A stretch of DNA of 64,000 nt from Rhodobacteraceae bacterium HTCC2083 (GTDB taxonomy: Bacteria; Pseudomonadota; Alphaproteobacteria; Rhodobacterales; Rhodobacteraceae): positions 500,017 to 564,016 of the forward strand of contig DS995276.1 in the NCBI GenBank assembly GCA_000156115.1, written 5' to 3'. The position numbers and the translations under genes were made by a program. The notes below the pieces were generated by a model, which saw only the letters and a list, made by a program, of their open reading frames with translations, did not search any database and had not been told where the DNA came from. How positions within the stretch are numbered: position 1 is the first letter of the stretch; every line of letters starts with the position of its first letter. This document shows, one piece after another, positions 27,602 through 48,746 of this stretch.

Positions 27602-28381
27602 TTAAACGGTGCGCTCGACCATCATTTTCTTGATCTCTGCGATTGCCAGCGCAGGGTTCAAACCCTTCGGGCATGTCTTTGCGCAGTTCATAATCGTGTG
27701 ACAGCGATAAAGTTTGAATGGATCTTCGAGTTCATCCAGCCGCTCACCCGTCGCCTCATCACGGCTGTCGATAATCCAGCGATATGCATGCAGCAATGCA
27801 GCTGGTCCAAGATAGCGATCGCCATTCCACCAATAAGATGGGCAAGACGTAGAGCAACACGCGCACATGACGCATTCATAGAGACCGTCAAGTTTCTTGC
27901 GATCCTCAATAGATTGCTTCCACTCTTTCGCTGGGCGATTTGTCTTTGTCTCAAGCCAAGGCATGATCGACGCGTGTTGTGCATAGAAATGCGTCAGGTC
28001 CGGGATCAAATCTTTCACGACAGGCATGTGTGGGAGCGGGTAGATCTTAACATCGCCCTTCACCTCATCCATGCCATAAATGCAGGCGAGTGTGTTGATC
28101 CCATCGATATTCATCGCACAGGATCCGCAAATTCCCTCACGGCACGAACGGCGGAATGTCAGCGTCGGATCAATCTCGTTCTTTATCTTGATCAGCGCGT
28201 CCAAAATCATTGGGCCGCAATTGTCCATATCAACCCAATAGGTATCTACAGACGGGTTTTTTCCGTCATCTGGGTTCCAACGATAAATCTGGAATTTACG
28301 GATATTATTCGCACCTTCCGGTTTCGGCCACGTTTTGCCGGTCGTCATGCGGGAATTCTTGGGGAGGGTCAGTTGTACCAT
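27602..28381 (-). CDS. sdhB: Succinate dehydrogenase iron-sulfur subunit
   Basis: SdhB carries electrons from the flavoprotein to quinone in complex II. The 259-residue protein has an N-terminal plant-type ferredoxin domain for the 2Fe-2S cluster ([15 protein letters not shown]) and a C-terminal part with [12 protein letters not shown] and [14 protein letters not shown] for the 4Fe-4S and 3Fe-4S clusters. It is the last gene of sdhC-sdhD-sdhA-lipoprotein-sdhB and is followed by a terminator. Confidence 0.98.
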
Positions 28382-28393
28382 CGTCTCACTCCT

Positions 28394-28711
28394 TTACGTG
28401 AACAGGCCAAGGCCGTTTTTTGAAATACAATGCATCGTGTCAGGACGCGGCGCGATCCCTGTTACAATTTCGACTGTCGCGGGTATTACACTAGTCGCTC
28501 CAGCTTTGGCGATTTCGAAGATCTCTCCCCGCGAGGCATTATCTATTACACAGTCTGTGATCGGGGCTGCATTCACGCCTATAAACTTCTGCGCGACAAC
28601 CCCGTTCACCACAGTTTTCGCCGTGTTGCGCGCAACTGTGCCAGCGGCGTCATTTGCTTGCAAACAGGCACCAAGGGTGAATGCGACAGAAATTGCTTGC
28701 AAAATCCGCAT
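28394..28711 (-). CDS. Small predicted lipoprotein inside the sdh operon
   Basis: A 105-residue protein with a lipobox-like signal [16 protein letters not shown], so Cys16 would be lipidated and the protein anchored in the envelope. The mature part is rich in Ala, Val and Thr and contains two more cysteines (ITDCVID, MHCISKN). No family is recognised. Its ATG overlaps the sdhA stop as TAATG, and sdhB starts 12 bases after its stop, so it is made together with complex II. A role near the complex is only inferred from position. Confidence 0.75.
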   Translation of the reverse strand: MRILQAISVAFTLGACLQANDAAGTVARNTAKTVVNGVVAQKFIGVNAAPITDCVIDNASRGEIFEIAKAGATSVIPATVEIVTGIAPRPDTMHCISKNGLGLFT

Positions 28712-30516
28712 TAGAAAGTCCGCTCTTTTGGGGCGATCTTCTTGAGGCTGATGCCACCGTCGGCCTCAGTCGTCAGCGGATCGGTCACAACAGGACGGTG
28801 CGAGAGCGCAACGTTCTTGCCATCAACGCGGCTGATCGTGTGCACGCGCCAGTTTTCATCATCACGCGTCGCGTAATCCTCATGCGCATGTGCACCACGG
28901 CTTTCTTTGCGCGCCTCGGCACCAACAATCGTCGCCAAAGCGTTCGGCATCAGGTTTGTCAGCTCAAGCGTTTCCATCAGATCGGAATTCCACACCAAAG
29001 AGCGATCCGTCACTTTCAAATCATCCACTTTGGACGCGACGTTCGTCATCTTTTCTACGCCTTCTTTCAGCGTTTTATCGGTGCGGAAGACCGCTGCGTC
29101 TTCTTGCATGGTTTTCTGCATTTCGAGGCGCAGTTCAGCAGTTGGCGTTGCGCCACTTGCGTTACGCAGGCCATCAAAGCGATCAAATGCGAAATCAACA
29201 GAGGCTTGATTCAGGGCTGCGGGCACTGCCTCCGCATCCACAACTTTACCAGCGCGGATCGCAGCGGCGCGGCCAAAGACCACGAGGTCGATCAGCGAGT
29301 TGGAGCCAAGACGATTCGCGCCGTGCACAGACGCACAGCCCGCTTCACCAACAGCCATAAGGCCCGGAACAACGGCGTTCGGATCTTTCGCTGTCGGATT
29401 CAGAACTTCGCCGAAGTAGTTCGTCGGAATACCGCCCATATTATAGTGAACCGTCGGCAGAACTGGAATTGGCTCTTTGTTAACGTTCACGCCGGCGAAA
29501 ATCTTAGCGCTTTCCGAGATACCTGGGAGGCGTTCCGCCAGAGCATCAGCAGGCAAGTGCGACAGGTTCAGGTGGATGTGATCGCCGCCCGCACCAACAC
29601 CACGCCCTTCGCGGATCTCCATAGTCATACAGCGCGATACATAATCACGCGGCGCGAGGTCTTTGTAGTTAGGCGCATAGCGCTCCATGAACCGTTCGCC
29701 CTTGGAGTTGGTGAGATAACCGCCTTCCCCGCGCGCACCTTCCGTGATCAAGCAGCCAGAGCCGTAAATCCCTGTCGGGTGGAACTGAACAAACTCCATG
29801 TCCTGCAAAGCGAGACCCTGACGTGCGACCATGCCACCGCCATCACCCGTGCATGTGTGCGCAGACGTCGCAGAGAAATACGCGCGCCCATATCCGCCCG
29901 TCGCAAGCACAACCATCTTCGCATTGAAGACATGCATCGTTCCGTCATCAAGCTTCCAGCAAACAACGCCTTGGCATTGGCCGTCTTCGGACATGATCAA
30001 ATCAATCGCGAAGTATTCAATGTAAAATTCCGCATTATTTTTCAGGGATTGGCCATAGAGCGTGTGTAGGATCGCGTGACCTGTGCGGTCCGCTGCGGCG
30101 CATGTGCGCTGCACGGGTGGACCTTCGCCGAATTCTGTCGTGTGACCACCGAATGGACGCTGATAAATCTTGCCCTCTTCTGTGCGTGAGAAGGGAACGC
30201 CGTAGTGCTCCAACTCATAGACCGCTTTAGGCGCTTCGCGCGCGAGGTATTCCATCGCGTCGGTATCGCCCAGCCAATCAGAGCCTTTGACGGTGTCATA
30301 CATATGCCACTGCCAGTTATCTGGACCCATGTTGGACAAGGACGCGGCAATGCCACCTTGCGCTGCAACTGTGTGCGAACGCGTCGGGAAAACCTTGGTC
30401 ACACATGCTGTGCGCAGGCCCTGCTCTGCCATGCCAAGCGTCGCGCGCAAACCTGCGCCACCCGCGCCAACCACCACAACATCATAGTCGTGGGTTTCAT
30501 ATTCATAAGCTGCCAT
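28711..30516 (-). CDS. sdhA: Succinate dehydrogenase flavoprotein subunit
   Basis: SdhA oxidises succinate to fumarate with covalently bound FAD. The 601-residue protein starts with the dinucleotide fold [19 protein letters not shown] and has the flavin-attachment histidine in [11 protein letters not shown] near residue 46. [18 protein letters not shown] near residue 395 and the active-site region [13 protein letters not shown] near residue 360 are also typical. It is the third gene of the operon, 17 bases after sdhD. Confidence 0.98.
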
Positions 30517-30533: not shown

Positions 30534-30905
30534 TTAAAGGGCGAGTTTAGCGATGGCGAAAATGCCAACCGCTGCTGCGCCGTAGCTGAGGCAGGTTAGG
30601 AGAATGATCAGAACTTTCTGCATGAGACCATGCACATAATCCTCAATCAGCACCTGTGCGCCGTCATTGAAATGTTTGAACCCGACAAGGGTCGTCAAAG
30701 CGGCGACAATCGCAGGAAAGGGCCGTCCGAAATAGGTCATGACCTCAGCGTAGTTAGATCCGAGGGTACCGCCGAATGTGAAGATGAACATCGGCAAAAG
30801 AAAAAGCAAAGCCACGGAGCTTACTTTCATCGACCAGAAGTGATGAGTGCCAGATTTTGCGCTGCCCATGCCGGTTGCGCGTTTTCGGTCTGTTAAGAAT
30901 GCCAT
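30534..30905 (-). CDS. sdhD: Succinate dehydrogenase membrane anchor subunit D
   Basis: A 123-residue inner-membrane protein with three hydrophobic helices ([48 protein letters not shown]). The stretch [16 protein letters not shown] between helices two and three supplies a heme-ligand histidine and quinone-site residues. Together with SdhC it anchors complex II. Confidence 0.94.
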
Positions 30906-30918
30906 GTCTCGCGCCCCT

Positions 30919-31302
30919 TTAAATGATGATGACAGTGATAAGCGTCAGCAAGATCGAACCGCCGATCACAGCGTAGCCCATCTTTTCGGCTGTGTTGATC
31001 TCTAGACCAATCGCATTGTCCCAGATCAAGTGACGCACGCCCGCGAGCGTGTGATACCACATGCCCCAAAGCGACAAGAACAGCACAACATCGCCGAACC
31101 AGCTGGTCAGGAACCCATTTGCGACCGCGAAATAGCTCTCCGATGTGGCGGCGGCCAAGAACCACCAAACAATGAGCAGTGCTGCAAGGAGCATTGCGTT
31201 GCCTGTGATCCGCGTCAAAATCGAAGTCATAGATGTCAGTTGCGGCCGGTATATTGAGAGATGCGGCGAGAGCGGGCGATTGCCCCTATTCACATCAGCC
31301 AT
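30919..31302 (-). CDS. sdhC: Succinate dehydrogenase cytochrome b556 subunit
   Basis: SdhC is the first gene of the operon: 127 residues, with the signature RPLSPHLSIYRPQLTSMTSI at the N-terminus and WYHTLAGVRHLIWD near residue 85, where the histidines bind heme b and line the quinone site. Three transmembrane helices are evident. An AAAGGATT ribosome site precedes the ATG. The 150-base leader holds a palindrome and a double operator. Confidence 0.96.
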   Translation of the reverse strand: MADVNRGNRPLSPHLSIYRPQLTSMTSILTRITGNAMLLAALLIVWWFLAAATSESYFAVANGFLTSWFGDVVLFLSLWGMWYHTLAGVRHLIWDNAIGLEINTAEKMGYAVIGGSILLTLITVIII

Positions 31303-31352: not shown

Positions 31353-31368
31353 CCTGTCACCTGACAGG
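31353..31368. promoter_or_regulatory. Perfect inverted repeat in the sdhC leader
   Basis: CCTGTCACCTGACAGG has seven-base arms round a two-base centre. It lies 51-66 bases before the sdhC start. It could be an operator or a short RNA hairpin in the 5' leader. Confidence 0.45.
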
Positions 31369-31415: not shown

Positions 31416-31452
31416 TTTTGTGATCACACAAACTTTAGCTGTGATCACAAAA
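31416..31452. promoter_or_regulatory. Double TGTGATCACA operator upstream of sdhC
   Basis: Two perfect ten-base palindromes TGTGATCACA at 31419-31428 and 31440-31449 have centres 21 bp apart. T runs flank the left and A runs the right, so the whole 37-base element is itself close to a dyad. It ends just before the stop codon of the DUF4344 gene and lies 117-147 bases upstream of the sdhC start. The same arrangement occurs at 38436-38472 before sucC. Spacing by two helical turns suggests cooperative binding of two dimers of one regulator. Confidence 0.8.
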
Positions 31453-32148
31453 TTAATTCGTACTAATTTGTTTGGCAATTCCGCTCAGCCAGCCTGTCAA
31501 CTCACGGCACATTGTTATGCTCGGTTCATCTAGATCGTAGAATGCGTTAGCTTCGCCGCAGTCTTCCAGCTTGACTGGAATATCGCGCGGCCAACTGAAC
31601 TCAACGTTCAGAGCTTTAATCTCTTGCGAGATTACTGAGTTTTCAGCACCCGCTTGCAAGACCAGCTTGCCTTTTAGAGCGTTGCTTTTGCTCATCTCAT
31701 CAAGGACGCCGTTCCAGCTATCCGACGCCATAGCGAATTCGTCTTCGCAACCATCCGCACGCTCTTGCGGCAGCTCAAGATCGCTGGCGAAATCTTCGCG
31801 CGCATCAGGATCAGCCCCATAAAACAAACACACAGTATTGAAATAACGTTGTTCGTCAGGCCCGTGTGTGTCCCAAAAAGCCGGCTCATCCTGCGCTTCA
31901 GCCCAGAAAAGGCTGGCGCTGTCATAGGCAATGACTTCCGCATCATCACTTTCATAGAGCGCGTCGATCAACAGGATCGAGAGCGAGTCCGCTGCATCTT
32001 CTTCCTGCCCAAAGATCGGCACTTGCATCTGATCAATGACCGCGTGGCCCAATTCATGGTAGAAAATCGCTAAGAGGTTGTTCGCTGTAAAATCCGCAAA
32101 TGCTGGGGCCGGCAGAAGAGTTAAGGCCGTCATAAACGCACGGATCAT
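31453..32148 (-). CDS. DUF4344-type secreted metallopeptidase-like protein
   Basis: A 231-residue protein with a signal peptide (MIRAFMTALTLLPAPAFA) and a zincin motif HELGH near residue 31 (YHELGHAVIDQ). Further acidic residues (QEEDAADSL) could complete the metal site. It fits the DUF4344 family of putative metallopeptidases and is probably periplasmic. The ATG at 32148 overlaps the mch stop as ATGA, so it is co-translated with an EMC-pathway enzyme although no functional link is known. Confidence 0.82.
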   Translation of the reverse strand: MIRAFMTALTLLPAPAFADFTANNLLAIFYHELGHAVIDQMQVPIFGQEEDAADSLSILLIDALYESDDAEVIAYDSASLFWAEAQDEPAFWDTHGPDEQRYFNTVCLFYGADPDAREDFASDLELPQERADGCEDEFAMASDSWNGVLDEMSKSNALKGKLVLQAGAENSVISQEIKALNVEFSWPRDIPVKLEDCGEANAFYDLDEPSITMCRELTGWLSGIAKQISTN

Positions 32149-33176
32149 TTCGGCAATACCACCCAATAATCAAGATCCAGCAGAACATGCGACATGTGTT
32201 TACCGTTCTCGCCTTTCAGCTGGAACACGGCGTCACCCTTGTAGGCCACCAAGCGCAAACGCAGTGCACCAACGCCCGGAGCGGAGGTGTCAGCTTTGTC
32301 CAGCACCTCGGACCACGCGCGCACAGTGTCACCGCTAAAGCACGGGTTTGCATGGGCACCGCCATTCAAGCCAACAATCATTTGTGCGTTCGCCAAACCG
32401 TTGAACGACAATGTGCGCGCCACGGAAATCACGTGACCGCCGTAAATCAGGCGTTGCCCATCATCGCGGTGGGTGGCGTCGAAGTGCACTTTCGCCGTGT
32501 TCTGCCAAAGTCGCGTCGCCATCATATGCTCGGCTTCTTCGATAGTCACACCATCAACGTGGTCGATCTTTTCGCCAATCTCATAGTCACCCCAGCGATG
32601 CGGTTCGCCTGACATCGTGGTGTCATAGTTGGTAAAATCTAGACCATCAGGGATCACCAGATCGGAAATATGCAGCGTGCCCTTGAGGTCTGGAACAACC
32701 GTTTCCGGCGCAGGCGCAGTGTCATCGCGTTTGCGCACCATCACCCAGCGCACAAATTGCATTACAGGTTCATCGTTCTGATTAATGCCAGAGGTCCGCA
32801 CATAAACGACACCGGTTTTACCGCTTGAATTTTGCTTCAAACCGATCACTTCGGACACAGAACGCAACGTGTCACCCGCATACACAGGCTTGAGCCAACG
32901 CCCCTCTGCATATCCAAGGTTCGCAATCGCGTTGATCGAAATATCGGGCACCGACTTGCCAAAGACCACGTGAAATGCAGCCAAATCATCCAAGGGTGAA
33001 GCTGGCAAACCACTTTGGCGCGCGAATTCATCGGAGGAATAAAGCGCGTGGCGCGCAGGATAAAGCGCGTGATAGAGCGCGCGCTCACCCCCAGATACAG
33101 TGCGCGGCACGGCATGATGGATCACATCTCCGATAGAATAATCTTCGAAAAAGCGGCCCGGGTTGGTCTTGAGCAT
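32145..33176 (-). CDS. mch: Mesaconyl-CoA hydratase (beta-methylmalyl-CoA dehydratase)
   Basis: Mch hydrates mesaconyl-C1-CoA to beta-methylmalyl-CoA in the EMC pathway. The 343-residue protein contains two MaoC-like hotdog domains: FFEDYSIGDVIHHAVPRTVS at the N-terminus and RWGDYEIGEKIDHVDGVTIE near residue 195, followed by the hydratase segment RLIYGGHVISVARTLSFNGL. Location in an operon with a malyl-CoA thioesterase and next to sdh matches the arrangement known in Rhodobacter. It starts directly after the DUF1737 stop. Confidence 0.95.
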   Translation of the reverse strand: MLKTNPGRFFEDYSIGDVIHHAVPRTVSGGERALYHALYPARHALYSSDEFARQSGLPASPLDDLAAFHVVFGKSVPDISINAIANLGYAEGRWLKPVYAGDTLRSVSEVIGLKQNSSGKTGVVYVRTSGINQNDEPVMQFVRWVMVRKRDDTAPAPETVVPDLKGTLHISDLVIPDGLDFTNYDTTMSGEPHRWGDYEIGEKIDHVDGVTIEEAEHMMATRLWQNTAKVHFDATHRDDGQRLIYGGHVISVARTLSFNGLANAQMIVGLNGGAHANPCFSGDTVRAWSEVLDKADTSAPGVGALRLRLVAYKGDAVFQLKGENGKHMSHVLLDLDYWVVLPK

Positions 33177-33383
33177 TTATTGTGCTCCCAGTTTCATGTC
33201 CGGTGTGTAGGGTGCGTCGACGTCTTTGGTGACCGATTGCCCGCAACGCATGATCCCTTTGACAGGATCAAAGGTTTGCGTCGGGGAGCCATAAAGCTCC
33301 CAACCCTTCGCCAATGCATCGCTGACCTTGTGGCAAAAGACTGATGTGTCATCTTCGCTAAGGAAGCGGTAGATCTTACTCAT
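33177..33383 (-). CDS. DUF1737 domain small protein
   Basis: A 68-residue cytoplasmic protein with the DUF1737 pattern: KIYRFLSEDDTSVFCHKVSD, then LAKGWELYGSPTQTFD and MRCGQSVTK. The function is unknown. It is placed tightly between nnrU-like and mch genes, touching both, so it belongs to the mcl2 operon. Confidence 0.85.
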   Translation of the reverse strand: MSKIYRFLSEDDTSVFCHKVSDALAKGWELYGSPTQTFDPVKGIMRCGQSVTKDVDAPYTPDMKLGAQ

Positions 33384-33386
33384 GGA

Positions 33387-33932
33387 TTAACCTCCAAAGG
33401 GCGACACGCCTAGCAGTAAGTGGATGGTTGCGACAACGAGGAAGCTGACCAAGGTGATGATGACCAAAAGTTTGTCTTTCTTGGCATCGCCCGGCTCCGG
33501 GCGCACCCACTCTTGGCTGCGATTGATCAAAATCACCGAAACGACCGCCCAAGCGAGCATGCCGCCAAACAGTATGATCGAGGCGAGATCGCCATTCACT
33601 AACAAATGCGCCAACGCCCAAATCTTTACCGCTGTGAGCTGCGGATGACGCATCTTGCCGCGCAAACGACCTGTCGTCGCGCTCATCCCGAAGACGAAAA
33701 ACGCGCCCAGCATCAGAAGATTGTTGATATGAGTGAAGAACGCAGGTGGCGACCAAACAGGTATAAATACGGCCCAGCGATAGCCAAAGATCATCAACAG
33801 CAAGGATAGGAACAACACAAACGCAATAGGTCCCTTGCCTTTTTCACCCAGTTTTGCGCGATGCGCTGGCAAAAGACGTTTGTAAAAGTGGGCGAGGCTC
33901 CACAGAAGCAGGCCGAGAATCAAAAGGGTCAT
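33387..33932 (-). CDS. NnrU family membrane protein
   Basis: A 181-residue inner-membrane protein with about five hydrophobic helices and the conserved stretch RHPQLTAVKIWALAHLLVNG near residue 117, diagnostic of the NnrU family. NnrU was named for an association with nitric-oxide/nitrite respiration, and relatives include the isoprenoid enzyme 15-cis-zeta-carotene isomerase. No denitrification genes are near, so the role in this operon is open. Confidence 0.88.
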   Translation of the reverse strand: MTLLILGLLLWSLAHFYKRLLPAHRAKLGEKGKGPIAFVLFLSLLLMIFGYRWAVFIPVWSPPAFFTHINNLLMLGAFFVFGMSATTGRLRGKMRHPQLTAVKIWALAHLLVNGDLASIILFGGMLAWAVVSVILINRSQEWVRPEPGDAKKDKLLVIITLVSFLVVATIHLLLGVSPFGG

Positions 33933-33938
33933 GGCTGG

Positions 33939-34796
33939 CTATTCCTTTGCTAGCGCGTCTATTGCCTTTGCTTTTGCCAGAATTTCACCTGCGCTGGCAA
34001 CGTGTAGGTTTTCAACGATGCGTCCATCAACGACTGCGACGCCCTGCCCGTCGGCTTTAGCGGCTTCAAAAGCTGCGATTTGGCGATTGGCGAGATCAAT
34101 CTCGGCATCACTTGGCGCGAAGGCGGTGTTGGTCACAGCGACCTGTGCAGGATGGATCAACGTTTTGCCGTCAAAGCCCATGTCACGCCCCTGCTCACAT
34201 TCTAACGCGAGGCCGTCATCGTCTTTGAACGCATTATAAACTCCATCAACAATAACCAACCCTTCGGCTTTCGCAGCAAGCAGACACAATTGCAGCGAGG
34301 TCAGCATCGGTAAGCGGTCCGCACGGAAACGGCATTGCAGCTCTTTGGCAAGATCATTGGTGCCCATCACCATGCCCTCAAGTTTAGGATGCGCTGCGAC
34401 AGCGCTTGCATTCAACATGCCGCGCGGGGTTTCCATCATCGCCCAGATTGGCAAATGACCTGTGATCTGAGCCAAAGCATCAAGATCTGCAGGCGCGGCG
34501 ACCTTTGGTAGCAAGACTGCATCTGCCTTCATCTGCGCGACGGCTTTGGCGTCATCTAAACCCCACTCAGTGTCAAAGCCGTTGATCCGAACGACCTTGT
34601 AGCGCGCACCGTAACCGTCTATTTCCAGAGCCTTCTTCAAGGTGTCGCGCGCAGCGACTTTTTCATCAATTGCAACCGCATCTTCGAGATCGAAAATGAT
34701 CGCATCGACCTGTATGCCACGCGCTTTATCCAACGCGCGCGGTTTTGAAGCTGGAATATAAAGAACGGAACGAAACGGGCGCTGTCGCAAATCCAT
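33939..34796 (-). CDS. mcl2: (3S)-malyl-CoA thioesterase (CitE-like family)
   Basis: A 285-residue TIM-barrel protein of the CitE/malyl-CoA lyase family: RSVLYIPASKPRALDKARG at the start, DAIIFDLEDAV near residue 31 with the metal-binding acids, MMETPRGMLN near residue 120 and GKTLIHPAQV near residue 215. In Rhodobacter sphaeroides the paralogue next to mch and the TCA operons is the thioesterase Mcl2, which releases malate from malyl-CoA. Length and position here fit that paralogue better than the lyase Mcl1. It heads mcl2-nnrU-DUF1737-mch-DUF4344. Confidence 0.88.
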   Translation of the reverse strand: MDLRQRPFRSVLYIPASKPRALDKARGIQVDAIIFDLEDAVAIDEKVAARDTLKKALEIDGYGARYKVVRINGFDTEWGLDDAKAVAQMKADAVLLPKVAAPADLDALAQITGHLPIWAMMETPRGMLNASAVAAHPKLEGMVMGTNDLAKELQCRFRADRLPMLTSLQLCLLAAKAEGLVIVDGVYNAFKDDDGLALECEQGRDMGFDGKTLIHPAQVAVTNTAFAPSDAEIDLANRQIAAFEAAKADGQGVAVVDGRIVENLHVASAGEILAKAKAIDALAKE

Positions 34797-35108
34797 GGAA
34801 GTGTCCTGAGGCTTGAATGTAATAATGTTGCGCTCAACTGCGCATTTATTTCCATTTCATTCAAGCTGAAAATGCCGCGACGCAGCAAAAATACTTCAAA
34901 TTCGATCCAACACCGCCATAGCGCACGTCGGCTTAACTGAATTTACACACCTCGCCTTGCATGCTGGTTTGGTCGATCATTGCGAGACGTTGCCCAGTAG
35001 AACACTGGTTTTTAGTTCCTGCACTGGACGACCAACTGAACCGAAAGGCGCCGTTCTCAACATCCTCTGAACGCACTTCGTAGCGCCATTTTTCAAAAGG
35101 AAGATGCG
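34797..35108. other. Intergenic region between mcl2 and a small secreted-protein gene
   Basis: This 312-base gap holds the mcl2 promoter region with a TGCGC-N6-GCGCA inverted repeat (34829-34844) and a GCCGCGACGCAGC element (34874-34886). The part from 34933 shows a minus-strand frame that enters the next gene's antisense and does not look coding. No RNA gene is evident. Confidence 0.5.
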
Positions 35109-35426
35109 ATGAACAAGCAAATGATATTTGGTGCGCTCGGGTTTGGAATTCTTGCACTCGCGGGCTCGACAGCCTTTTCACAAACCAATCGCAACTGCGC
35201 GCCGCGCGACGTTGTCGTGGAACGACTTGCGCAAAAATATGGTGAGGCCCGCCAATCGGTCGGCCTCGGGGCCAACAACTCTATTGTTGAAACATTCTCC
35301 TCGTCGGAAACAGGCACTTGGACAATCACTGTAACGCTTGCCAATGGAACCACGTGTTTGGTCGCCACTGGCCAGAATTACGAAGCGCTCGCAGAAGTTC
35401 TGCCAGCCAAAGGCAACGACGCTTAG
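35109..35426 (+). CDS. Small secreted protein of unknown function
   Basis: A 105-residue protein with a clear signal peptide (MNKQMIFGALGFGILALAGS, then TAFSQ). The mature part has two cysteines (NCAPRD and TTCLVATG) that could form a disulfide, and the segment VVERLAQKYGEARQSVGLG. Comparable small periplasmic proteins occur in Roseobacters without a known role. AAAAGGAAG precedes the ATG. Its stop interlocks with that of the convergent TSUP gene. Confidence 0.75.
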   Translation: MNKQMIFGALGFGILALAGSTAFSQTNRNCAPRDVVVERLAQKYGEARQSVGLGANNSIVETFSSSETGTWTITVTLANGTTCLVATGQNYEALAEVLPAKGNDA

Positions 35427-36190
35427 GTGAGTGCGTCGAAAATCAACTTGGTTCCCGTTAAAACAAGCAAAACGTAAGTTGTTGCGTAAAACGGCTTTTC
35501 GGGCACCAAATTATGCGCTTTCACACCCAGCCACGCGCCCAAAAGCGCAAATGGGGCGAGCGCAAGGTTTACCAGCAATAGATCCAGTGTGAATATTCCA
35601 AGAATACCGTAGGCCACCGCCTTCAGCACATTGATGATCCAGAACACAAAAACTGTGTTCGCTTGATACTCGGTTTTACTAAGCTTCAAAGACAGCATAT
35701 ACATCGTAGAGGGTGGGCCTCCTGCGTGGCTAACAAAACTGGTGAACCCAGATGTCGCACCCACGATCAGGCCGACGCTATCGGGCAAAGGTCGCGACGA
35801 GATCTTCAACACCCCCCATGCACGCGCTATTTGCCAAATCACAAACAGCAGTGACATGGCACCGATCAAAAACCGGATCACGTCATCATTTGTCATGCGG
35901 TACACCAAAGCCCCGATAACGACACCCGGCACACCTCCGATCAACAATAAACGTGCAGATGGCCAATGCCACTTGCGCCAATAGGGCCGCAACGTCGCGA
36001 AGTCGATCAACATCAGCAATGGCAACATCAGCCCAAGTGCTTCGCCCGGCGTGAGCACAAGCGCCAGAATCGATGACGCCGCAAAAGCCGCACCTGACCC
36101 AAATCCGCCCTTTGAAATACCTGCAAAAATCACCGCAGGGATTGCGACAGCGAAAAAGGAAAAGTCCCAAAGCACAGCTACGTCTTTCAT
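35423..36190 (-). CDS. TauE/SafE (TSUP) family membrane transporter
   Basis: A 255-residue protein with about eight transmembrane helices and the TSUP signatures GISKGGFGSGAAFA near residue 24 and GATSGFTSFVSHAGGPPSTM near residue 148. It probably exports a small sulfur-containing or organic anion; the substrate is unknown. It is divergent from mdh, which may suggest a link to organic-acid metabolism, but this is only positional. Confidence 0.9.
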   Translation of the reverse strand: MKDVAVLWDFSFFAVAIPAVIFAGISKGGFGSGAAFAASSILALVLTPGEALGLMLPLLMLIDFATLRPYWRKWHWPSARLLLIGGVPGVVIGALVYRMTNDDVIRFLIGAMSLLFVIWQIARAWGVLKISSRPLPDSVGLIVGATSGFTSFVSHAGGPPSTMYMLSLKLSKTEYQANTVFVFWIINVLKAVAYGILGIFTLDLLLVNLALAPFALLGAWLGVKAHNLVPEKPFYATTYVLLVLTGTKLIFDALT

Positions 36191-38435: not shown

Positions 38436-38472
38436 ATTTGTGATCACAGTATCAAATCGTGTGATCACAAAT
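38436..38472. promoter_or_regulatory. Double TGTGATCACA operator upstream of sucC
   Basis: Perfect palindromes TGTGATCACA lie at 38439-38448 and 38460-38469, centres 21 bp apart, flanked by ATT on the left and AAT on the right. The element is 101-131 bases upstream of the sucC start in a 194-base gap that otherwise holds only promoter-like AT-rich sequence. It copies the arrangement in front of sdhC. Confidence 0.8.
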
Positions 38473-38569
38473 GTGCGATTTATCCGGTCTACTGCATTTT
38501 ATCGTTTAATCCGCCCTTAATATTCACACTATAGGGGCAAATAATCGAAGCAAGACGGGACCGTTTCTA

Positions 38570-39766
38570 ATGAACATCCACGAATACCAAGCCAAGGCAC
38601 TGCTCAAGAGCTATGGTGCGCCAGTTTCAGATGGCCGCGCTGTGCTCAAAGCAGAAGACGCCAAAACAGCCGCTGGCGAGATGGACGGCCCACTTTGGGT
38701 TGTTAAGGCGCAAATCCACGCAGGTGGTCGCGGCAAAGGCACCTTCAAAGAGGCCGATGCAGGCGAAAAAGGTGGCGTACGCCTCGCTTTCTCCGCCTCC
38801 GAGGCTGCTGATGAAGCTAAAAAGATGCTTGGCCGTACATTGGTCACACACCAGACTGGCCCAGCGGGCAAGCAAGTGAACCGCATCTATATCGAAGATG
38901 GCTCCGACATCGAAGCGGAGCTTTATCTCGCTCTGCTCGTGGATCGTCAAACATCGCGGATTTCCTTCGTGTGCTCCACAGAGGGTGGCATGGACATCGA
39001 AGAAGTTGCAGCAGCAACGCCTGAGAAAATCATCAGCTTTTCCGTTGATCCCGCGACAGGTTACCAAGCGTTCCACGGTCGCCGCATCGCATTTGAGCTC
39101 GGCCTCAAAGGCGCGCAGGTAAAACAGTGCGTTAAGCTGATGGGTCAACTTTACCAAGCCTTCGTTGAGAAGGACATGGAGCAACTGGAGATCAACCCGT
39201 TGATCGTTCTGGAAGGCTCTGGCGATCTTAAGGTTCTCGACGCGAAGGTCGGTTTCGACGGCAACGCACTTTATCGCCACGCCGACATAATGGCACTGCG
39301 CGATGAGACAGAAGAAGACAGCAAAGAGCTGGAGGCATCCAAGTATGACCTCAACTACATCGCACTTGATGGCGAAATCGGCTGCATGGTCAACGGTGCA
39401 GGTCTCGCGATGGCGACGATGGACATCATCAAACTTTATGGTGCAGAACCTGCAAACTTCCTCGACGTAGGCGGCGGCGCTACCAAAGAGAAGGTGACAG
39501 AGGCCTTCAAAATCATCACCTCCGACCCACAGGTCAAAGGCATCCTCGTGAACATCTTCGGCGGCATCATGCGCTGCGATGTGATCGCGGAAGGCGTTGT
39601 CGCTGCGGTGAAAGAAGTCGGTCTGCAAGTTCCACTTGTTGTGCGCTTAGAGGGCACAAACGTGGAAGAAGGCAAAGCAATCATCAACAACTCCGACGTT
39701 GACGTGATTGCAGCGGACGACCTGAAAGACGGTGCACAGAAAATCGTCAAAGCGGTGAAAGGATAA
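38570..39766 (+). CDS. sucC: Succinate--CoA ligase, beta subunit
   Basis: SucC with SucD interconverts succinyl-CoA and succinate with substrate-level ATP/GTP formation. The 398-residue protein has the ATP-grasp N-terminus [20 protein letters not shown] and [13 protein letters not shown] near residue 46, EINPLIVL near residue 206 with metal-binding residues, and the CoA-ligase domain [18 protein letters not shown] near residue 297. It opens the operon sucC-sucD-DUF805-sucA-sucB, four bases before sucD. Confidence 0.98.
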
Positions 39767-39770
39767 TCCC

Positions 39771-40652
39771 ATGGCTGTTCTCGTAGACGAAAACACAAAA
39801 GTAATTTGCCAAGGCCTCACAGGTTCGCAAGGTACATTCCACTCCGAGCAAGCGATTGCATATGGCACAAAGATGGTCGGTGGCGTGACACCCGGCAAGG
39901 GCGGTACCACGCATCTTGACCTGCCGGTCTTCAACTCCGTGCACGAAGCACGTCACGTGACCGAAGCGAACGCATCGGTAATCTACGTACCTCCTCCCTT
40001 CGCGGCGGATTCAATCCTAGAGGCGATCGACGCCGAAATGGAATTGATCGTGTGCATCACCGAAGGCATTCCAGTGCTCGACATGATGCGTGTTCAGCGC
40101 GCTCTTGAAGGCTCTTCTTCGCGTCTTATCGGACCTAACTGCCCAGGCGTGATCACACCTGACGCTTGCAAAATCGGCATTATGCCGGGTCACATCCACA
40201 AGCGCGGCTCTTGCGGCGTTGTTTCCCGCTCCGGCACGCTAACGTATGAAGCAGTTAAGCAAACGACGGATCTTGGTCTTGGCCAATCCTCTGCTGTCGG
40301 CATCGGTGGCGATCCGATCAAAGGCACAGAGCACATCGACGTGCTGGAAATGTTCCTCGGGGATCCAGAAACACAGTCCATCATCATGATTGGTGAAATC
40401 GGTGGTTCTGCTGAGGAAGAAGCAGCGCAGTTCCTTGCGGATGAGAAGAAAAAGGGCCGTTGGAAACCAACAGCTGGATTCATCGCAGGTCGCACCGCCC
40501 CTCCCGGCCGCCGCATGGGCCACGCTGGCGCGATTGTCGCTGGTGGCAAAGGTGGAGCCGAGGACAAGATCGAAGCTATGCGCTCTGCTGGTATCGTTGT
40601 GGCAGACAGCCCCGCAACACTCGGCGAAGCCGTGATCGAAGCGATCGGTTAA
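39771..40652 (+). CDS. sucD: Succinate--CoA ligase, alpha subunit
   Basis: SucD binds CoA and carries the phosphohistidine. The 293-residue protein shows [19 protein letters not shown] at the start, [11 protein letters not shown] near residue 121, [13 protein letters not shown] near residue 146 and [20 protein letters not shown] near residue 240, with the phosphorylated histidine in RMGHAGA. Its stop overlaps the next start (TAATG). Confidence 0.98.
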
Positions 40653-41242
40653 TGTCCTTCACGGACGCCATAAAGACGTGCTTTCGCAAGTACGTCACAT
40701 TCTCGGGCCGCGCCACGCGGGCCGAGTTTTGGAATTTCGTTTTGTTTATGCTGATAGCTAGCATTGCGCTGACAATTGTGAACTCAATCATATTCGGACC
40801 GACAATTCTCCAAAACGTATCTGTGACTATCAACAGTGCTGGCGAGCAAACTCAGTCGAACTCAATCACAAAGCAATACAACGCTGGATGGCTCGGGACG
40901 TTTTTCCCGATCGCAGTGTTTCTACCCGCTTTGTCCGTCACCATCCGCAGGCTGCAAGATACTGGAAGAAACTTTAGGCACTTGCTCATCCCGATTGGAT
41001 GCGCAGGCCTTAGTGCCACTATATTTTTTGCGACGTCTAAATCAATACCAATTGATACGAGTATGTTTCCCGATCCATCTACGATGCCAACTTCGCTCCG
41101 AATGCCAGGCAATATTCCTGTCATGATAGGTTTGGCGTTACTGACGTTCGCGTCTTATGTTTTTTTCCTGATCTGGCTTTGCAATAGCTCGGAACCAACG
41201 ACAAACGAATTCGGTCCTTACCCTCGCGAGGTGTCTTCATGA
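40652..41242 (+). CDS. DUF805 family membrane protein inside the suc operon
   Basis: A 196-residue inner-membrane protein with the DUF805 pattern: KYVTFSGRATRAEFWNFVLF at the N-terminus and RRLQDTGRNFRHLL near residue 98, with about four hydrophobic helices. Function unknown. The start is fixed by TAATG overlap with sucD and the stop by ATGA overlap with sucA, so it is translationally coupled on both sides between succinyl-CoA ligase and 2-oxoglutarate dehydrogenase. Confidence 0.88.
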   Translation: MSFTDAIKTCFRKYVTFSGRATRAEFWNFVLFMLIASIALTIVNSIIFGPTILQNVSVTINSAGEQTQSNSITKQYNAGWLGTFFPIAVFLPALSVTIRRLQDTGRNFRHLLIPIGCAGLSATIFFATSKSIPIDTSMFPDPSTMPTSLRMPGNIPVMIGLALLTFASYVFFLIWLCNSSEPTTNEFGPYPREVSS

Positions 41243-44199
41243 ATGACCAAAGCCCCAACGACGTGTTTCACGCCTCCTCTTTCATGCAAGGCCATAACGC
41301 CGAGTATCTAGAGCAGCTTTATGCGCAATATGCTAGCGATCCCAATGCGGTTGACGCGGCATGGCAGGACTTCTTTTCCCAGCTTGGCGATGCTGAATTA
41401 GACGTGAAGGCTGAGGCCGCTGGCCCCTCTTGGGCGCGCGCTGATTGGCCCCCTGTTCCAAATGACGACCTAACAGCCGCGCTTGATGGTCAGTGGCCAG
41501 CGCAGCCTGAGACAAAAGCAGCGGGCGACAAGATCAAAGCGCAAGCCGCCTCCAAAGGCGTTGAAGTCAGCGACGAGGCGATCAAACGCGCGGTGCTCGA
41601 CTCCATCCGTGCGCTGATGATCATTCGCGCTTATCGCATCCGTGGTCACCTTGCTGCAGATCTTGACCCACTCGGCATGCGTGAAGCCTCCAATCATCCT
41701 GAGCTGGACCCGAAGTCCTATGGCTTCACCGACGCAGATATGGATCGCCCGATATTCATCGACAACGTTTTGGGTCTGCAAATCGCATCGATGCGCCAGA
41801 TCGTAGAGATCGTAAAACGCACCTATTGCGGCACATTCGCGCTGCAATACATGCATATTTCTGATCCGGAAGAAGCGAGTTGGCTGAAAGAGCGCATCGA
41901 GGGCTTGGGCAAAGAGATCCAGTTCTCGCGCGAGGGTCGCAAAGCGATCCTCAACAAGATGGTTGAGGCCGAAGGTTTTGAGAAATTCCTCCATGTGAAA
42001 TACATGGGCACCAAGCGTTTCGGCCTTGATGGCGGCGAAAGCCTGATCCCTGCGATGGAGCAAATCATCAAACGCGGGGGCGCTTTGGGCGTTCAAGATA
42101 TCGTCATCGGCATGCCCCATCGTGGGCGCTTATCCGTTCTTGCAAACGTGATGAGCAAACCCTACCGCGCCATTTTCAACGAGTTTCAAGGCGGCAGCTT
42201 CAAGCCTGAGGATGTGGACGGCTCTGGGGACGTAAAATATCACCTTGGTGCCAGCTCTGATCGTGAATTTGACGGCAACAATGTGCACCTTTCGCTGACT
42301 GCGAACCCCTCACACCTTGAGGCCGTAAACCCTGTAGTCATAGGGAAAGTGCGTGCCAAGCAAGACCAGCTCAACGATAAGGAGCGGATCAAAGTGATGC
42401 CGATCCTACTGCACGGCGATGCGGCATTCGCGGGTCAAGGCGTTGTTGCGGAGTGTTTTGCGCTCTCCGGCCTGCGCGGCCATAAAACTGGCGGCACGAT
42501 GCACATCGTTGTGAACAACCAGATCGGTTTCACCACGGCTCCGCATTTCTCACGCTCCTCGCCCTATCCAACAGACAACGCTTTGGTTGTGGAAAGCCCG
42601 ATTTTCCACGTCAACGGCGATGATCCAGAGGCGGTTGTTCACGCCGCGAAAGTCGCGACTGAGTTCCGCCAAAAGTTCCACAAAGACGTCGTTATCGACA
42701 TTATTTGCTACCGCCGCTTTGGTCACAATGAAGGGGATGAACCTATGTTCACCAACCCCGTCATGTACAAAAAGATCAAGACACATAAGACCACGCTCAG
42801 TCTTTATACAGAGCGGTTGGTTAAAGACGGTCTCATCCCAGAAGGTGAGATCGAAGATATGAAAACCGCCTTCCAAGCGCATCTAAATGATGAGTTTGAA
42901 GCCGGCAAGGATTACAAACCCAACAAGGCTGATTGGCTGGATGGCAAGTGGTCGCATCTGGATCGCCGCAAGGACGAATACCAGCGCGGCAAAACCGCGA
43001 TTGCGCCAGAAACGCTCGCCGAAGTGGGGACCGCGCTCACCAGAACCCCGGACAATTTCCCACTGCATAAAACAGTCGGGCGTTTGCTCGATGCAAAGAA
43101 GAAAATGTTCGAAAGTGGCGAGGGCTTCGATTGGGCCACGGGCGAGGCTTTAGCCTTTGGCGGATTGCTAACCGAAGGCATGGGCGTGCGCCTCGCTGGT
43201 CAAGACAGCACGCGCGGCACCTTCTCGCAGCGCCATTCGGGTTTGATCAACCAAGAAACCGAAGAGCGGTATCACCCACTCAACCACATCCGCGAAGGCC
43301 AAGCGCATTATGAAGTCATCGACTCCATGCTGTCGGAATATGCGGTCCTCGGTTTTGAGTATGGTTACTCAATGGCGGAGCCAAATGCGCTGACGCTTTG
43401 GGAAGCGCAGTTTGGTGATTTCGCCAATGGCGCGCAGATTATGTTCGACCAGTTCATCAGTTCCGGTGAAAGCAAATGGTTGCGCATGTCGGGTCTTGTT
43501 GTCCTTCTACCTCACGGTTTCGAGGGCCAAGGGCCAGAGCATTCGTCCGCTCGACTTGAGCGTTTCTTGCAAATGTGTGGTCAGGACAACTGGATCGTGG
43601 CGAACTGCACGACGCCAGCAAACTACTTCCACATTTTGCGCCGCCAGTTGCACCGTTCTTTCCGCAAACCCCTGATTTTGATGACGCCAAAATCGCTGCT
43701 ACGCCACAAGTTGGCCGTGAGCAAAGCGGAAGAGTTCACGACCGGCTCCAGCTTCCACCGTGTCCTCTGGGATGATGCGCAATACGGCAATTCGGACACA
43801 AAACTGGTTGCCGATGAGAAGATCAAACGCGTCGTCATGTGTTCAGGCAAGGTATACTATGACTTGCTCGAAGAACGAGACGCGCGCGGCCTTGATGACA
43901 CGTACATCATGCGTTTCGAGCAATTCTATCCTTTCCCTGCGAACTCTGCGGTCAAGGAATTGGGCCGCTTCAAGAACGCAGAAATGATCTGGTGTCAGGA
44001 AGAGCCCAAAAATCAAGGTGGCTGGACCTTTATGGAACCGAACCTTGAGTGGGTCTTGAACCGCATCAAAGCGAAACATGAGCGCCCTGTCTTTGCAGGT
44101 CGTTCGGCAAGTGCCTCCCCAGCGACAGGTCTGGCCAGCATTCACAAAGCACAACAAGCAGCACTCATCGACGATGCGCTGACACGGAAAGGGAAGTAA
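41239..44199 (+). CDS. sucA: 2-oxoglutarate dehydrogenase E1 component
   Basis: SucA is the thiamine-diphosphate decarboxylase of the 2-oxoglutarate dehydrogenase complex. At 986 residues it has the usual length. The short N-terminal E2-binding segment (YLEQLYAQYASDPNAVDAAW) is present. GMPHRGRLSVLANVMSKP near residue 291, HGDAAFAGQGVVAE near residue 392 and NNQIGFTT near residue 425 form the cofactor and magnesium site; HGFEGQGPEHSSARLERFLQ near residue 755 is the second-half active-site loop. It directly precedes sucB. Confidence 0.98.
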   Translation: MNDQSPNDVFHASSFMQGHNAEYLEQLYAQYASDPNAVDAAWQDFFSQLGDAELDVKAEAAGPSWARADWPPVPNDDLTAALDGQWPAQPETKAAGDKIKAQAASKGVEVSDEAIKRAVLDSIRALMIIRAYRIRGHLAADLDPLGMREASNHPELDPKSYGFTDADMDRPIFIDNVLGLQIASMRQIVEIVKRTYCGTFALQYMHISDPEEASWLKERIEGLGKEIQFSREGRKAILNKMVEAEGFEKFLHVKYMGTKRFGLDGGESLIPAMEQIIKRGGALGVQDIVIGMPHRGRLSVLANVMSKPYRAIFNEFQGGSFKPEDVDGSGDVKYHLGASSDREFDGNNVHLSLTANPSHLEAVNPVVIGKVRAKQDQLNDKERIKVMPILLHGDAAFAGQGVVAECFALSGLRGHKTGGTMHIVVNNQIGFTTAPHFSRSSPYPTDNALVVESPIFHVNGDDPEAVVHAAKVATEFRQKFHKDVVIDIICYRRFGHNEGDEPMFTNPVMYKKIKTHKTTLSLYTERLVKDGLIPEGEIEDMKTAFQAHLNDEFEAGKDYKPNKADWLDGKWSHLDRRKDEYQRGKTAIAPETLAEVGTALTRTPDNFPLHKTVGRLLDAKKKMFESGEGFDWATGEALAFGGLLTEGMGVRLAGQDSTRGTFSQRHSGLINQETEERYHPLNHIREGQAHYEVIDSMLSEYAVLGFEYGYSMAEPNALTLWEAQFGDFANGAQIMFDQFISSGESKWLRMSGLVVLLPHGFEGQGPEHSSARLERFLQMCGQDNWIVANCTTPANYFHILRRQLHRSFRKPLILMTPKSLLRHKLAVSKAEEFTTGSSFHRVLWDDAQYGNSDTKLVADEKIKRVVMCSGKVYYDLLEERDARGLDDTYIMRFEQFYPFPANSAVKELGRFKNAEMIWCQEEPKNQGGWTFMEPNLEWVLNRIKAKHERPVFAGRSASASPATGLASIHKAQQAALIDDALTRKGK

Positions 44200-44202
44200 C
44201 CC

Positions 44203-45690
44203 ATGAGCACAGAAATACGCGTTCCAACATTGGGCGAGTCGGTCACAGAGGCCACCGTTGCCACGTGGTTCAAAAAGCCCGGCGATGCCGTTGCTGTTGA
44301 TGAAATGCTTTGTGAGCTGGAGACTGACAAGGTTACAGTCGAAGTGCCCGCAACAGCCGCAGGTACTATGGGCGAAATCGTTGCCTCTGAAGGCACAACT
44401 GTTGGCGTTGATGCTCTGCTCGCGACCATCGTTGAAGGATCTGGTGCCGTGAGTGCGCCCGCCAAACCCGCGAAAGCCGCAGCGAAATCAGACAGTGCCG
44501 CGGCAAGCGTTGATGTCATGGTACCAACTTTAGGTGAATCTGTGACCGAAGCAACGGTCAGCACATGGTTCAAGAAAGTCGGCGACACGGTCGTGCAGGA
44601 CGAAATGCTCTGTGAATTGGAAACCGACAAAGTCTCCGTCGAAGTGCCAGCACCCTCTGCTGGCGTTTTGTCTGAAATTATCGCCGCGGAAGGCACAACA
44701 GTTGATGCTGCGGCCAAGCTCGCCGTCATTGGCGGCGCGACGGCCAGCGCGAGCGATGCACCAGCGGCTGCCGCAGCACCCGCTGCCAGCACAGGTGGCA
44801 AAGACGTGGAGGACGCGCCATCCGCGAAGAAAGCGATGGCCGAAGCGGGCGTTTCGCGCGATGCTGTCACAGGCTCTGGCCGCGATGGCCGCATTATGAA
44901 GGATGACGTTGCCAAAGCGCTCTCCGCAGCTCCGGCCCCCGCTGCCGCACCTGCACCAGCGCCGCGTGCCCCTGTTAGTGCCGACGATGCCTCGCGTGAG
45001 GAGCGTGTGAAGATGACACGCCTGCGCCAGACAATCGCGCGGCGCTTGAAGGAAAGCCAAAACACGGCAGCCATGCTCACCACCTATAACGAGGTCGACA
45101 TGACCGAGGTGATGGCCCTTCGCAATGAATATAAAGACCTGTTTCTTAAGAAACATGGCGTCAAATTGGGTTTCATGTCTTTCTTCACGAAGGCCTGTGT
45201 TCACGCGCTGAACGAAGTTCCCGAAGTGAACGCTGAGGTTGATGGCACTGACGTTGTTTACAAGAACTTTGTCCACATGGGTATTGCGGCGGGTACGCCA
45301 ACAGGTCTGGTCGTTCCCGTGATCCGCGATGCAGATTCAATGTCATTTGCGGGCATCGAAAAAGCGATCGCCGAAAAAGGCGCGCGCGCGCGTGACGGTA
45401 AACTGTCGATGGCAGAAATGCAGGGCGGCACCTTTACAATTTCCAACGGTGGCGTCTACGGATCGCTGATGTCTTCGCCGATCTTGAACCCGCCTCAGTC
45501 AGGCATTCTTGGCATGCACAAAATCCAGGATCGTCCCATGGCCATCAATGGTGAAGTCGTGATCCGCCCGATGATGTATCTTGCCCTGTCCTATGATCAC
45601 CGCATCGTGGATGGCAAAGGCGCGGTAACCTTCCTTGTGCGCGTCAAAGAAGCGCTCGAAGATCCCCGCCGCCTCTTGATGGATCTGTAA
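44203..45690 (+). CDS. sucB: Dihydrolipoyllysine succinyltransferase (E2) with two lipoyl domains
   Basis: The E2 core passes succinyl groups to CoA. The 495-residue protein has two lipoyl domains, with lipoylated lysines in [13 protein letters not shown] (K43) and [14 protein letters not shown] (K143), exactly 100 residues apart. A peripheral-subunit-binding domain follows ([20 protein letters not shown] near residue 207), joined by Ala/Pro-rich linkers, and then the acyltransferase domain ending in [14 protein letters not shown] with the catalytic histidine. Enterobacterial SucB has one lipoyl domain, so this is a duplicated form. It starts three bases after the sucA stop. Confidence 0.98.
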
Positions 45691-47357: not shown

Positions 47358-48746
47358 ATGTCTGACTATGACGTTATCGTAATCGGCTCCGGCCCGGGTG
47401 GCTATGTCAGCGCAATTCGCTGCGCACAATTGGGGCTAAAAACTGCCTGTGTTGAGGGGCGTGACACGCTTGGTGGCACATGTTTGAACGTGGGCTGCAT
47501 CCCCTCTAAGGCGCTGCTTCACGCCTCCCATCAATTGCATGAGGCGCAGCATAATTTCGCCAAAATGGGTCTCAAGGGCAAAAGTCCTTCGGTGGATTGG
47601 ACCCAAATGCTCACATACAAAGATGAAGTGATTGAGGGCAACACAAAAGGTGTCGAGTTCCTGTTCAAAAAGAACAAAATCGATTGGCTCAAAGGCTGGG
47701 GCAGCATTCCCGAGGCAGGCAAAGTCAAAGTTGGTGATGAGACACATAATGCGAAGAACATCATCATCGCGTCAGGTTCAGAACCTTCATCACTGCCCGG
47801 CATCGCGGTGGACGAAAAGATGGTTGTGACATCGACGGGCGCGCTTGAGCTTGGCAAAATACCGAAGAAAATGGTTGTCATTGGTGCGGGTGTCATCGGC
47901 TTAGAGCTTGGCTCTGTCTATGCACGTCTTGGCGCAGAGGTGACGGTCGTTGAATTTCTCGATGCGATCACGCCGGGAATGGACGCAGAAGTGCAAAAGA
48001 CCTTCAAACGGATCTTGGGCAAACAGGGCTTGAATTTCGTGCTCGGCGCGGCGGTTCAAGGGGTTGAGACCACCAAGACCAAAGCAAAGGTCACCTATAA
48101 ACTTCGCAAAGATGACAGCGAACACATCATTGATGCGGACACGGTTTTGGTTGCGACAGGGCGCCGACCGTTCACAGATGGTCTCGGCCTAGACGCCTTG
48201 GGCGTGGAAATGTCCGAACGCGGCCAGATCAAAACGGGCAGCGATTGGCAAACCAACATCAAGGGGATCTACGCAATTGGCGATGCAATTGATGGTCCAA
48301 TGCTCGCGCATAAAGCAGAGGATGAGGGCATGGCCGCCGCAGAACAGATCGCGGGTAAGCATGGTCACGTAAACTACGGCGTGATTCCCGGTGTGATCTA
48401 CACGCATCCCGAGGTCGCGAATGTGGGCAAGACAGAGCAAGAGCTCAAGGATGCTGGCCAAAATTACAAAGTTGGCAAGTTCTCATTCATGGGCAACGGT
48501 CGCGCCAAAGCTAACTTTGCGGGCGACGGCTTCGTTAAGATCCTCGCGGACAAGGATACAGACCGCATTTTAGGTGCTCATATCATCGGACCAAGTGCGG
48601 GTGACCTAATCCATGAAGTCTGTGTTGCGATGGAATTTGGGGCCTCGGCAGAGGATTTGGCGATGACCTGTCACGCGCATCCGACCTACTCAGAAGCCGT
48701 GCGCGAAGCAGCGCTTGCTTGCGGTGATGGCGCAATTCACGCATGA
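47358..48746 (+). CDS. lpdA: Dihydrolipoyl dehydrogenase (E3)
   Basis: E3 reoxidises the dihydrolipoyl arms of 2-oxoglutarate dehydrogenase with FAD and NAD. The 462-residue protein has [20 protein letters not shown] for FAD, the redox-active disulfide in [16 protein letters not shown] near residue 37, [19 protein letters not shown] for NAD and the C-terminal active-site [15 protein letters not shown] near residue 440. An AAAAAGGACAC site precedes the start. It is the last TCA-cycle gene of the cluster and is convergent with plsC, with only four bases between the stops. Confidence 0.98.

Follow-up and report, generated by a model that had tools for sequence, protein, structure and literature searches.

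A paired palindrome upstream of sucC and sdhC as a candidate AkgR double operator in Rhodobacteraceae bacterium HTCC2083 and its relatives

The primary paper on AkgR of Rhodobacter sphaeroides is reportedly that of Imam, Noguera and Donohue (2015, mBio), where RSP_0981 is said to be described as AkgR, and we take the two names to stand for the same protein. GntR/FCD proteins are often repressors, an activator role being less typical of the family, and McbR (YncC) of Escherichia coli presumably acts on the biofilm/colanic acid gene mcbA. In class I activation, known from CRP and NarL in E. coli, the activator sites lie upstream of the -35 element at helical-turn steps. At ogt, NarL uses two DNA targets (PMC7419079, excerpt).

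In the excerpted text of PMC4344238, the GntR protein RSP_0981 is predicted as a regulator of sucCD, of sdh and of the genes for 2-oxoglutarate dehydrogenase, no CRP analogue is predicted in R. sphaeroides, and the predicted motif of CceR (RSP_1663) is an inverted repeat, (A/G/T)GTT-N6-8-AAC(A/C/T). The available part of PMC6365646 terms AkgR an activator and gives GTGATCAC among its binding sites. According to an extract of PMC11323563, the CceR regulon of R. sphaeroides, unlike that of Paracoccus denitrificans, includes sdh and 2-oxoglutarate dehydrogenase; a second regulator may therefore act on these operons. Among the literature matches listed for TGTGATCACA, as far as their extracts go, there is no study of an AkgR-type regulator. 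Transcription start sites of R. sphaeroides have been published as a set (PMC7471390).

The paired element before sucC and sdhC

The window, the whole stretch of 64,000 nucleotides analysed here, carries two exact copies of the palindrome TGTGATCACA on the forward strand ahead of sucC: site 1, distal, at 38439..38448, and site 2, proximal, at 38460..38469, the latter followed by AA(T/A) that is conserved in the promoter alignment. The 11-bp spacer between them is GTATCAAATCG (38449..38459), the core motif GTGATCAC is exact in both palindromes, their centres are 21 bp apart, and 100 bases lie between site 2 and the sucC ATG at 38570. The operon that follows, on the same strand, comprises sucC (38570..39766; 398 aa, with ATP-grasp_2 and Ligase_CoA domain matches), sucD (39771..40652), sucA for the 2-oxoglutarate dehydrogenase E1 (41239..44199) and sucB for E2 (44203..45690); an lpd-like ORF for dihydrolipoyl dehydrogenase, E3, is found at 47358..48746 (+).

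A second pair, likewise of exact matches, stands on the reverse strand before sdhC, with the distal palindrome at 31440..31449 and the proximal one at 31419..31428. Here the gene order is sdhC (30919..31302, start at 31302), sdhD (30534-30905, recognised by gene order and tblastn to relatives), sdhA (28711-30516) and sdhB (27602-28381), all on the reverse strand, and the spacer of this pair differs in sequence from that before sucC. The operons preceded by the two pairs, sucCDAB and sdhCDAB, are the predicted AkgR targets sucCD, sdh and 2-oxoglutarate dehydrogenase. The first-pass annotation had described two perfect palindromes at a 21-bp centre distance with a spacer unlike that of the sdh copy, which the exact positions of both pairs confirm. 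It had also set the element apart from CRP sites, rightly so: the half-sites abut with a zero-base spacer, which rules out the CRP site TGTGA-N6-TCACA, and the protein proposed to bind belongs to the GntR/FCD group.

At one mismatch or fewer the window holds 8 matches to TGTGATCACA against 2.29 expected, and 1 of 100 shuffles reached as many. The whole genome (4,018,415 bases in 5 contigs) has 9 exact copies, of which 4 make up the sucC and sdhC pairs and 5 are single. These two pairs are the only ones at a gap of 8-14, the reversed control pattern giving 0. Three of the single sites (L008, L010, L011) are inside listed ORFs and were rejected as operators and treated as chance. A further one, about 200 bp before nuoA (L009:1501-1510), was considered as a conserved target and rejected, since 28 of 30 nuoA upstream regions have two or more mismatches, like shuffles; the exact site occurs in our genome only, and one other region has one mismatch.

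Some observations concern the surroundings of the pairs. Between sdh and mdh, at 31453-36190, lies a block with a DUF4344 metallopeptidase, a mesaconyl-CoA-hydratase-like protein, NnrU, an HpcH/HpaI lyase and a TauE/SafE protein, much of which recurs in relatives. Within sucD, CGTGATCACA is found at 40148-40157 and likewise within sucD of another genome (G043, L288:10178), probably as a coding constraint. In one relative (G079) a lone exact copy stands about 110 bp ahead of the lpd-like gene (L291:16615-16624).

We surveyed 292 genomes of one order, all listed as one family and comprising 113 genera. An exact pair at a gap of 10-12 was present in 201 of the 292, spread over 86 genera, with 0 in the control columns. 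No exact pair was seen at a gap of 0-9 in any of the 292, and at gaps of 12-41 only four genomes had one (gaps 13, 20, 25 and 29). The gap-25 case (G112; L168, G112:C1:3570764-3570808) consists of exact sites upstream of the akgR orthologue, two instead of one. Of 30 pair loci taken from this survey, 21 were at sucC and 8 at sdhC, while the remaining one lay between an mdh-like ORF and a sucA-like ORF for a 2-oxoglutarate dehydrogenase E1-like protein. Outside the family, in the same class, 1 of 207 genomes had a pair (G305, gap 12; L293, G305:C1:1130807-1130838). It sits between TonB-receptor-like and alpha/beta-hydrolase-like ORFs, about 2.5 kb from a GntR gene whose product is 31% identical to P0001, the candidate regulator described below; the best GntR match outside the family is 43% identical to P0001.

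The sucC promoters were compared in a sample of 110, our own included, taken as the best rows by SucC similarity (some skipped) among the matches listed, and thus leaning towards genomes close to our own; 7 more were chosen, 5 from genomes without a close regulator and 2 for context. All 110 similarity-selected promoters have the pair at one mismatch or fewer with a gap of 10-11, whereas the 7 chosen ones divide into 3 with the pair and 4 without. The total of 113 out of 117 comprises 86 exact pairs at gap 11, 23 at gap 11 with one mismatch and 4 at gap 10 with one mismatch; in 585 shuffled sucC upstream regions the best two-site match never had fewer than 4 mismatches. Over the 109 gap-11 promoters the mean pairwise identity is 0.998 for site 1 and 0.966 for site 2, compared with 0.396 for the spacer and 0.264 for the upstream flank. 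The commonest substitution changes the first T of site 2 to C (20 of 109), and the spacer is unconserved except for a first base that is C or G in all 109 and an A/T-rich centre.

Near-invariant palindromes around a diverged spacer and next to a diverged flank point to selection and not to recent copying. The earlier proposal that sites and spacing are both under selection, instead of stemming from a recent duplication, is thus upheld, the gap being kept at 10-11. That proposal named sucC promoters lacking the pair, or a freely drifting gap, as evidence against it. Where the regulator is present neither was found (110 of 110, gap 10-11); the pair is nevertheless missing in 4 of the 7 further promoters, 5 of which had been picked for an absent or diverged regulator.

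Distances to the promoter and phased A/T blocks

Measured from the end of the pair to the ATG, sucC promoters fall into a short class of 95-102 (n = 36) and a long class of 106-116 (n = 77), with none at 103-105. Class-wise conservation, cross-checked by the shift between classes, reveals a TT that we read as part of a putative -35. In the short class it stands at +36/37 from the pair end (T in 23 and 33 of 36) and in the long class at +47/48 (T in 73 and 74 of 77). In HTCC2083, which has the short-class arrangement, this TT would be 38505..38506 (+). A weight matrix of the core promoter trained on one class falls 10-11 bp shifted in the other in 28 of 36 and 59 of 77 promoters. A putative -10, TATAGG at +61 (38530..38535, +), was read from class-wise conservation and is placed tentatively, as +72 gives the best match to TATAAT in 15 of the 77 promoters of the long class, and +61 in 3 of the 36 of the short class. 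An EM search for a -10 box returned instead a leader-side motif, mostly 27-29 bases before the ATG. The putative sucC -35 consists of the TT signal only, and its spacing to the putative -10, 19 bp, is above the usual.

For sdhC, 27 unique promoters were used after removal of 5 duplicates, chosen through exact pairs except for one with two mismatches (L292), so that this set is uninformative on how frequent the pair is. Twenty-five of the 27 have a GTGAC(A/T) box that, counted with its preceding base, starts at +57 to +59 relative to the end of the pair; in the other two it stands at +70 and +79. In HTCC2083 the box corresponds to a putative -35, GTGACA, at 31355..31360 on the reverse strand.

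A similar distance to the start codon had been put forward as a feature common to both operons. This finds no support: the distance varies from 95 to 116 at sucC and from 114 to 171 at sdhC. What stays constant, apart from steps of roughly a single helical turn, is how far the pair stands from the inferred core promoter: the -35-like positions are near 36, 47, 58, 70 and 79. Judged on these putative core elements, the sites lie upstream of the -35 at whole-turn steps, as activator sites do in class I activation. On a tree of 37 sucC genes the short class needs three changes, at least two of them forced by well-supported branches, and so the shift between classes happened more than once. The whole arrangement amounts to a natural spacing experiment, made by evolution on a candidate activator from a family known mainly for repressors.

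Downstream of the pair, the A/T fraction in the 113 sucC promoters (cf. 38470-38520 in the window) ranges from 0.19 to 0.99 and peaks at +9-12, +20-23, +29-32, +38-42 and +47-49, the last ones being due in part to the long-class -35 region because the classes were pooled. Our own promoter has the first block of this array at +9 to +12 (38478..38481, +) and one at +28 to +32 (38497..38501, +) that matches the third family peak, and the second (+20 to +23) is missing. The A/T power at 9.5 bp is 1.22, compared with 0.24 in shuffled sequences, with a phase coherence of 0.95; a subset of 48 sequences less than 55% identical gives 1.19 and 0.94. The 27 sdhC promoters, with close relatives kept in, show the same first peaks and a power of 1.25 at 10.5 bp, against about 0.25 when shuffled. 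Upstream of the sucC pair the signal is weaker (0.43 at 10 bp versus 0.25 shuffled), although 0 of 200 shuffles were as high. These blocks may be docking places for the C-terminal domain of the RNA-polymerase alpha subunit, or a curved segment joining activator and polymerase.

The candidate regulator and its own promoter

The genome has 13 FCD matches, and exact TTGTGATCACAA is found at one locus only among them, before the start of the gene for P0001. This protein of 216 aa, with PF00392 (GntR, 9.6e-13) and PF07729 (FCD, 9.6e-17) domains, is encoded at G000:C5:681304-681951, about 117 kb past the end of the window, and is our candidate AkgR orthologue. Motif, targets and neighbourhood make it likely to be the orthologue of RSP_0981. 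Its closest solved relative by sequence is McbR (YncC; PDB 4p9f, E 1.1e-20, residues 18-213), and the AlphaFold model of the Planktotalea orthologue is weak (mean pLDDT 62.1, pTM 0.40). In 5 relatives, chosen for a nearby akgR and read over about 20 kb, akgR comes right after lpd, where the mdh-suc cluster ends. Going by the RSP locus numbers given in the excerpt of PMC4344238, the regulator gene of R. sphaeroides seems to be on the sdh side, unlike in these five.

The gene of P0001 is preceded by a single TGTGATCACA 8 bases ahead of its ATG (L007:1501-1510). A scan of named genomes gave 161 relatives of P0001, and in the best 80 of these (L055-L134) a site was found upstream of the matched start in every case, 71 exact and 9 with one mismatch; it was the only such site within 300 bp in all 80 and lay 7-10 bases before the start in 60. 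In the same best 80 of 161, TTGAC occupies -17 to -13 from the site with 74-77 of 80 per base. With the box in this position, the akgR site lies over the spacer and over the place where a -10 is expected, which is the layout of an autorepressed promoter. Read in this way, the AkgR orthologue probably represses its own gene by blocking the promoter, and with the start so close behind the site the akgR mRNA may be leaderless.

We also asked whether regulator and pair occur together. A close P0001 orthologue (best E ≤ 1e-76) is present in 287 of the 292 genomes. In the other five the best E is 1.8e-11 (G023), 2.6e-57 (G110), 3.7e-27 (G141) and 1.3e-53 (G227), with no match in G232; none of these five has an exact pair anywhere, versus 201 of the 287 others. 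The sucC pair is absent altogether in four of them (G110, G141, G227 and G232), and two changes are needed to place these pairless genomes on the 37-gene sucC tree, that is, they form two branches. The fifth, G023, has a sucC pair with one mismatch (L280) and no close orthologue was found in its draft of about 80 contigs. It counts against a simple rule linking regulator and pair; perhaps the gene was missed in the draft, recently lost or replaced.

Mechanism, rival readings and described systems

From these comparisons we infer binding in HTCC2083, the sign of regulation, the contact with RNA polymerase and the autorepression. We consider it quite likely that the paired element is an AkgR double operator activating sucCDAB and sdhCDAB from upstream, with akgR itself autorepressed. 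Two AkgR dimers would each occupy one of the TGTGATCACA palindromes, at a distance of two helical turns, the 21 bp between centres placing both on the same face of the DNA, and would activate the sucCDAB promoter from upstream, the second pair acting likewise for sdhCDAB. The contact with RNA polymerase would probably be class-I-like, across A/T-rich, helically phased DNA. At akgR, the single site, placed after the conserved -35 box and where the -10 is expected, would block the promoter. A wider version, in which the whole family shares a composite element with dimers locked 21 bp apart, A/T minor-groove patches at each turn, an activator that shifts by whole turns only and single-site autorepression, is more tentative, and we put it a little below an even chance. 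If true, the sign of regulation would be encoded in how many copies of one invariant 10-mer are present and where they stand, and a GntR/FCD activator would have several conserved docking positions for the alpha C-terminal domain between itself and the promoter.

Chance palindromes or a recent duplication could be suspected from the shortness of TGTGATCACA and from the single copies that make up 5 of the 9 exact genome sites, L008, L010 and L011 among them within listed ORFs. Invariant cores with diverged spacers in 113 of 117 promoters, the 201 of 292 genomes in the survey and the reversed control of 0 refute this reading, whose probability we regard as negligible. It speaks for some other binder, such as a different GntR protein, a factor of CRP/FNR type or CceR, that the Pseudomonas regulator 32% identical to AkgR shares GTGATCAC (PMC6365646, excerpt), G023 has the pair and no close orthologue found, and CceR is reported over sdh and the 2-oxoglutarate dehydrogenase genes of R. 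sphaeroides (PMC11323563, extract). We hold such a binder to be improbable all the same: the P0001 family has the site before its own start in all 80 of the best among 161 relatives, two branches lack both the pair and a close orthologue, the six-base spacer of CRP is absent, and the GTT-N6-8-AAC inverted repeat predicted for RSP_1663 in the available text is not contained in the TGTGATCACA palindrome, the palindrome alone being compared. Comparative genomics together with the published AkgR work largely answers the question of the binder's identity.

With AkgR as the binder, its effect could still be repression or a dual one, or a loop could join the two pairs across about 7 kb. Repression fits the single site in the akgR promoter and a protein family whose members often are repressors, and the pairs do flank the sdh-suc stretch. 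Nonetheless, both pairs stand upstream of the putative core promoter and not over it, with the helical-step spacing of an activator; AkgR is termed an activator in the excerpt of PMC6365646, and no observation requires looping. We therefore judge repression or looping unlikely, if less so than another binder. The A/T blocks leave more room for doubt. Their periodicity may be unrelated to the pair, reflecting ordinary curvature or nucleoid-protein binding while the palindromes alone matter, and we give this reading a substantial chance, just short of that of the composite element. It agrees with the weaker 10-bp signal upstream of the sucC pair (0.43) and with a sliding-window measure of A/T power in which sucC reaches 1.22, sdhC only 0.79, and akgR (30 of 80 loci) and nuoA (30) about 0.55. 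Against it, power anchored on the pair is 1.22 at sucC and 1.25 at sdhC, compared with about 0.25, both arrays have their first block at +9 to +12, and the 48 non-redundant sucC sequences keep the phase fixed relative to the pair (coherence 0.94).

The reading of the pair as an AkgR double operator names a likely switch for the control of TCA operons in most of a large family, many marine roseobacters included, and predicts negative autoregulation of the regulator. It comes with a clean geometry of two dimers, fixed 21-bp spacing, helical-step promoter distance and phased A/T DNA. In the available parts of the literature citing AkgR, the paired geometry, the phasing and the A/T array are not described; we make no claim that they are unpublished.

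Set beside described systems, the element is closest to AkgR of R. sphaeroides, with which it shares the GntR family, the same predicted RSP_0981 targets (PMC4344238, excerpt) and the core GTGATCAC (PMC6365646, excerpt); it differs in genus and in having two sites at 21 bp before the targets and one before the regulator. The regulator PS417_07240 of the deoxyribonate cluster in Pseudomonas simiae is 32% identical to AkgR and has a conserved GTGATCAC near its start, yet, in the same excerpt of PMC6365646, it has one palindrome at -47 to -40 from the start codon and belongs to a catabolic cluster instead of the TCA cycle. E. coli McbR (4p9f) is akin as the closest solved sequence relative of P0001. 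Class I activation by CRP or NarL resembles the present case in its upstream sites at helical-turn steps, seen here from sequence alone, and is unlike it in protein family, in that our half-sites abut, and in that two dimers would sit at exactly 21 bp. Regulator, motif and targets are thus already known, and the geometry across the family is what the present comparison adds.
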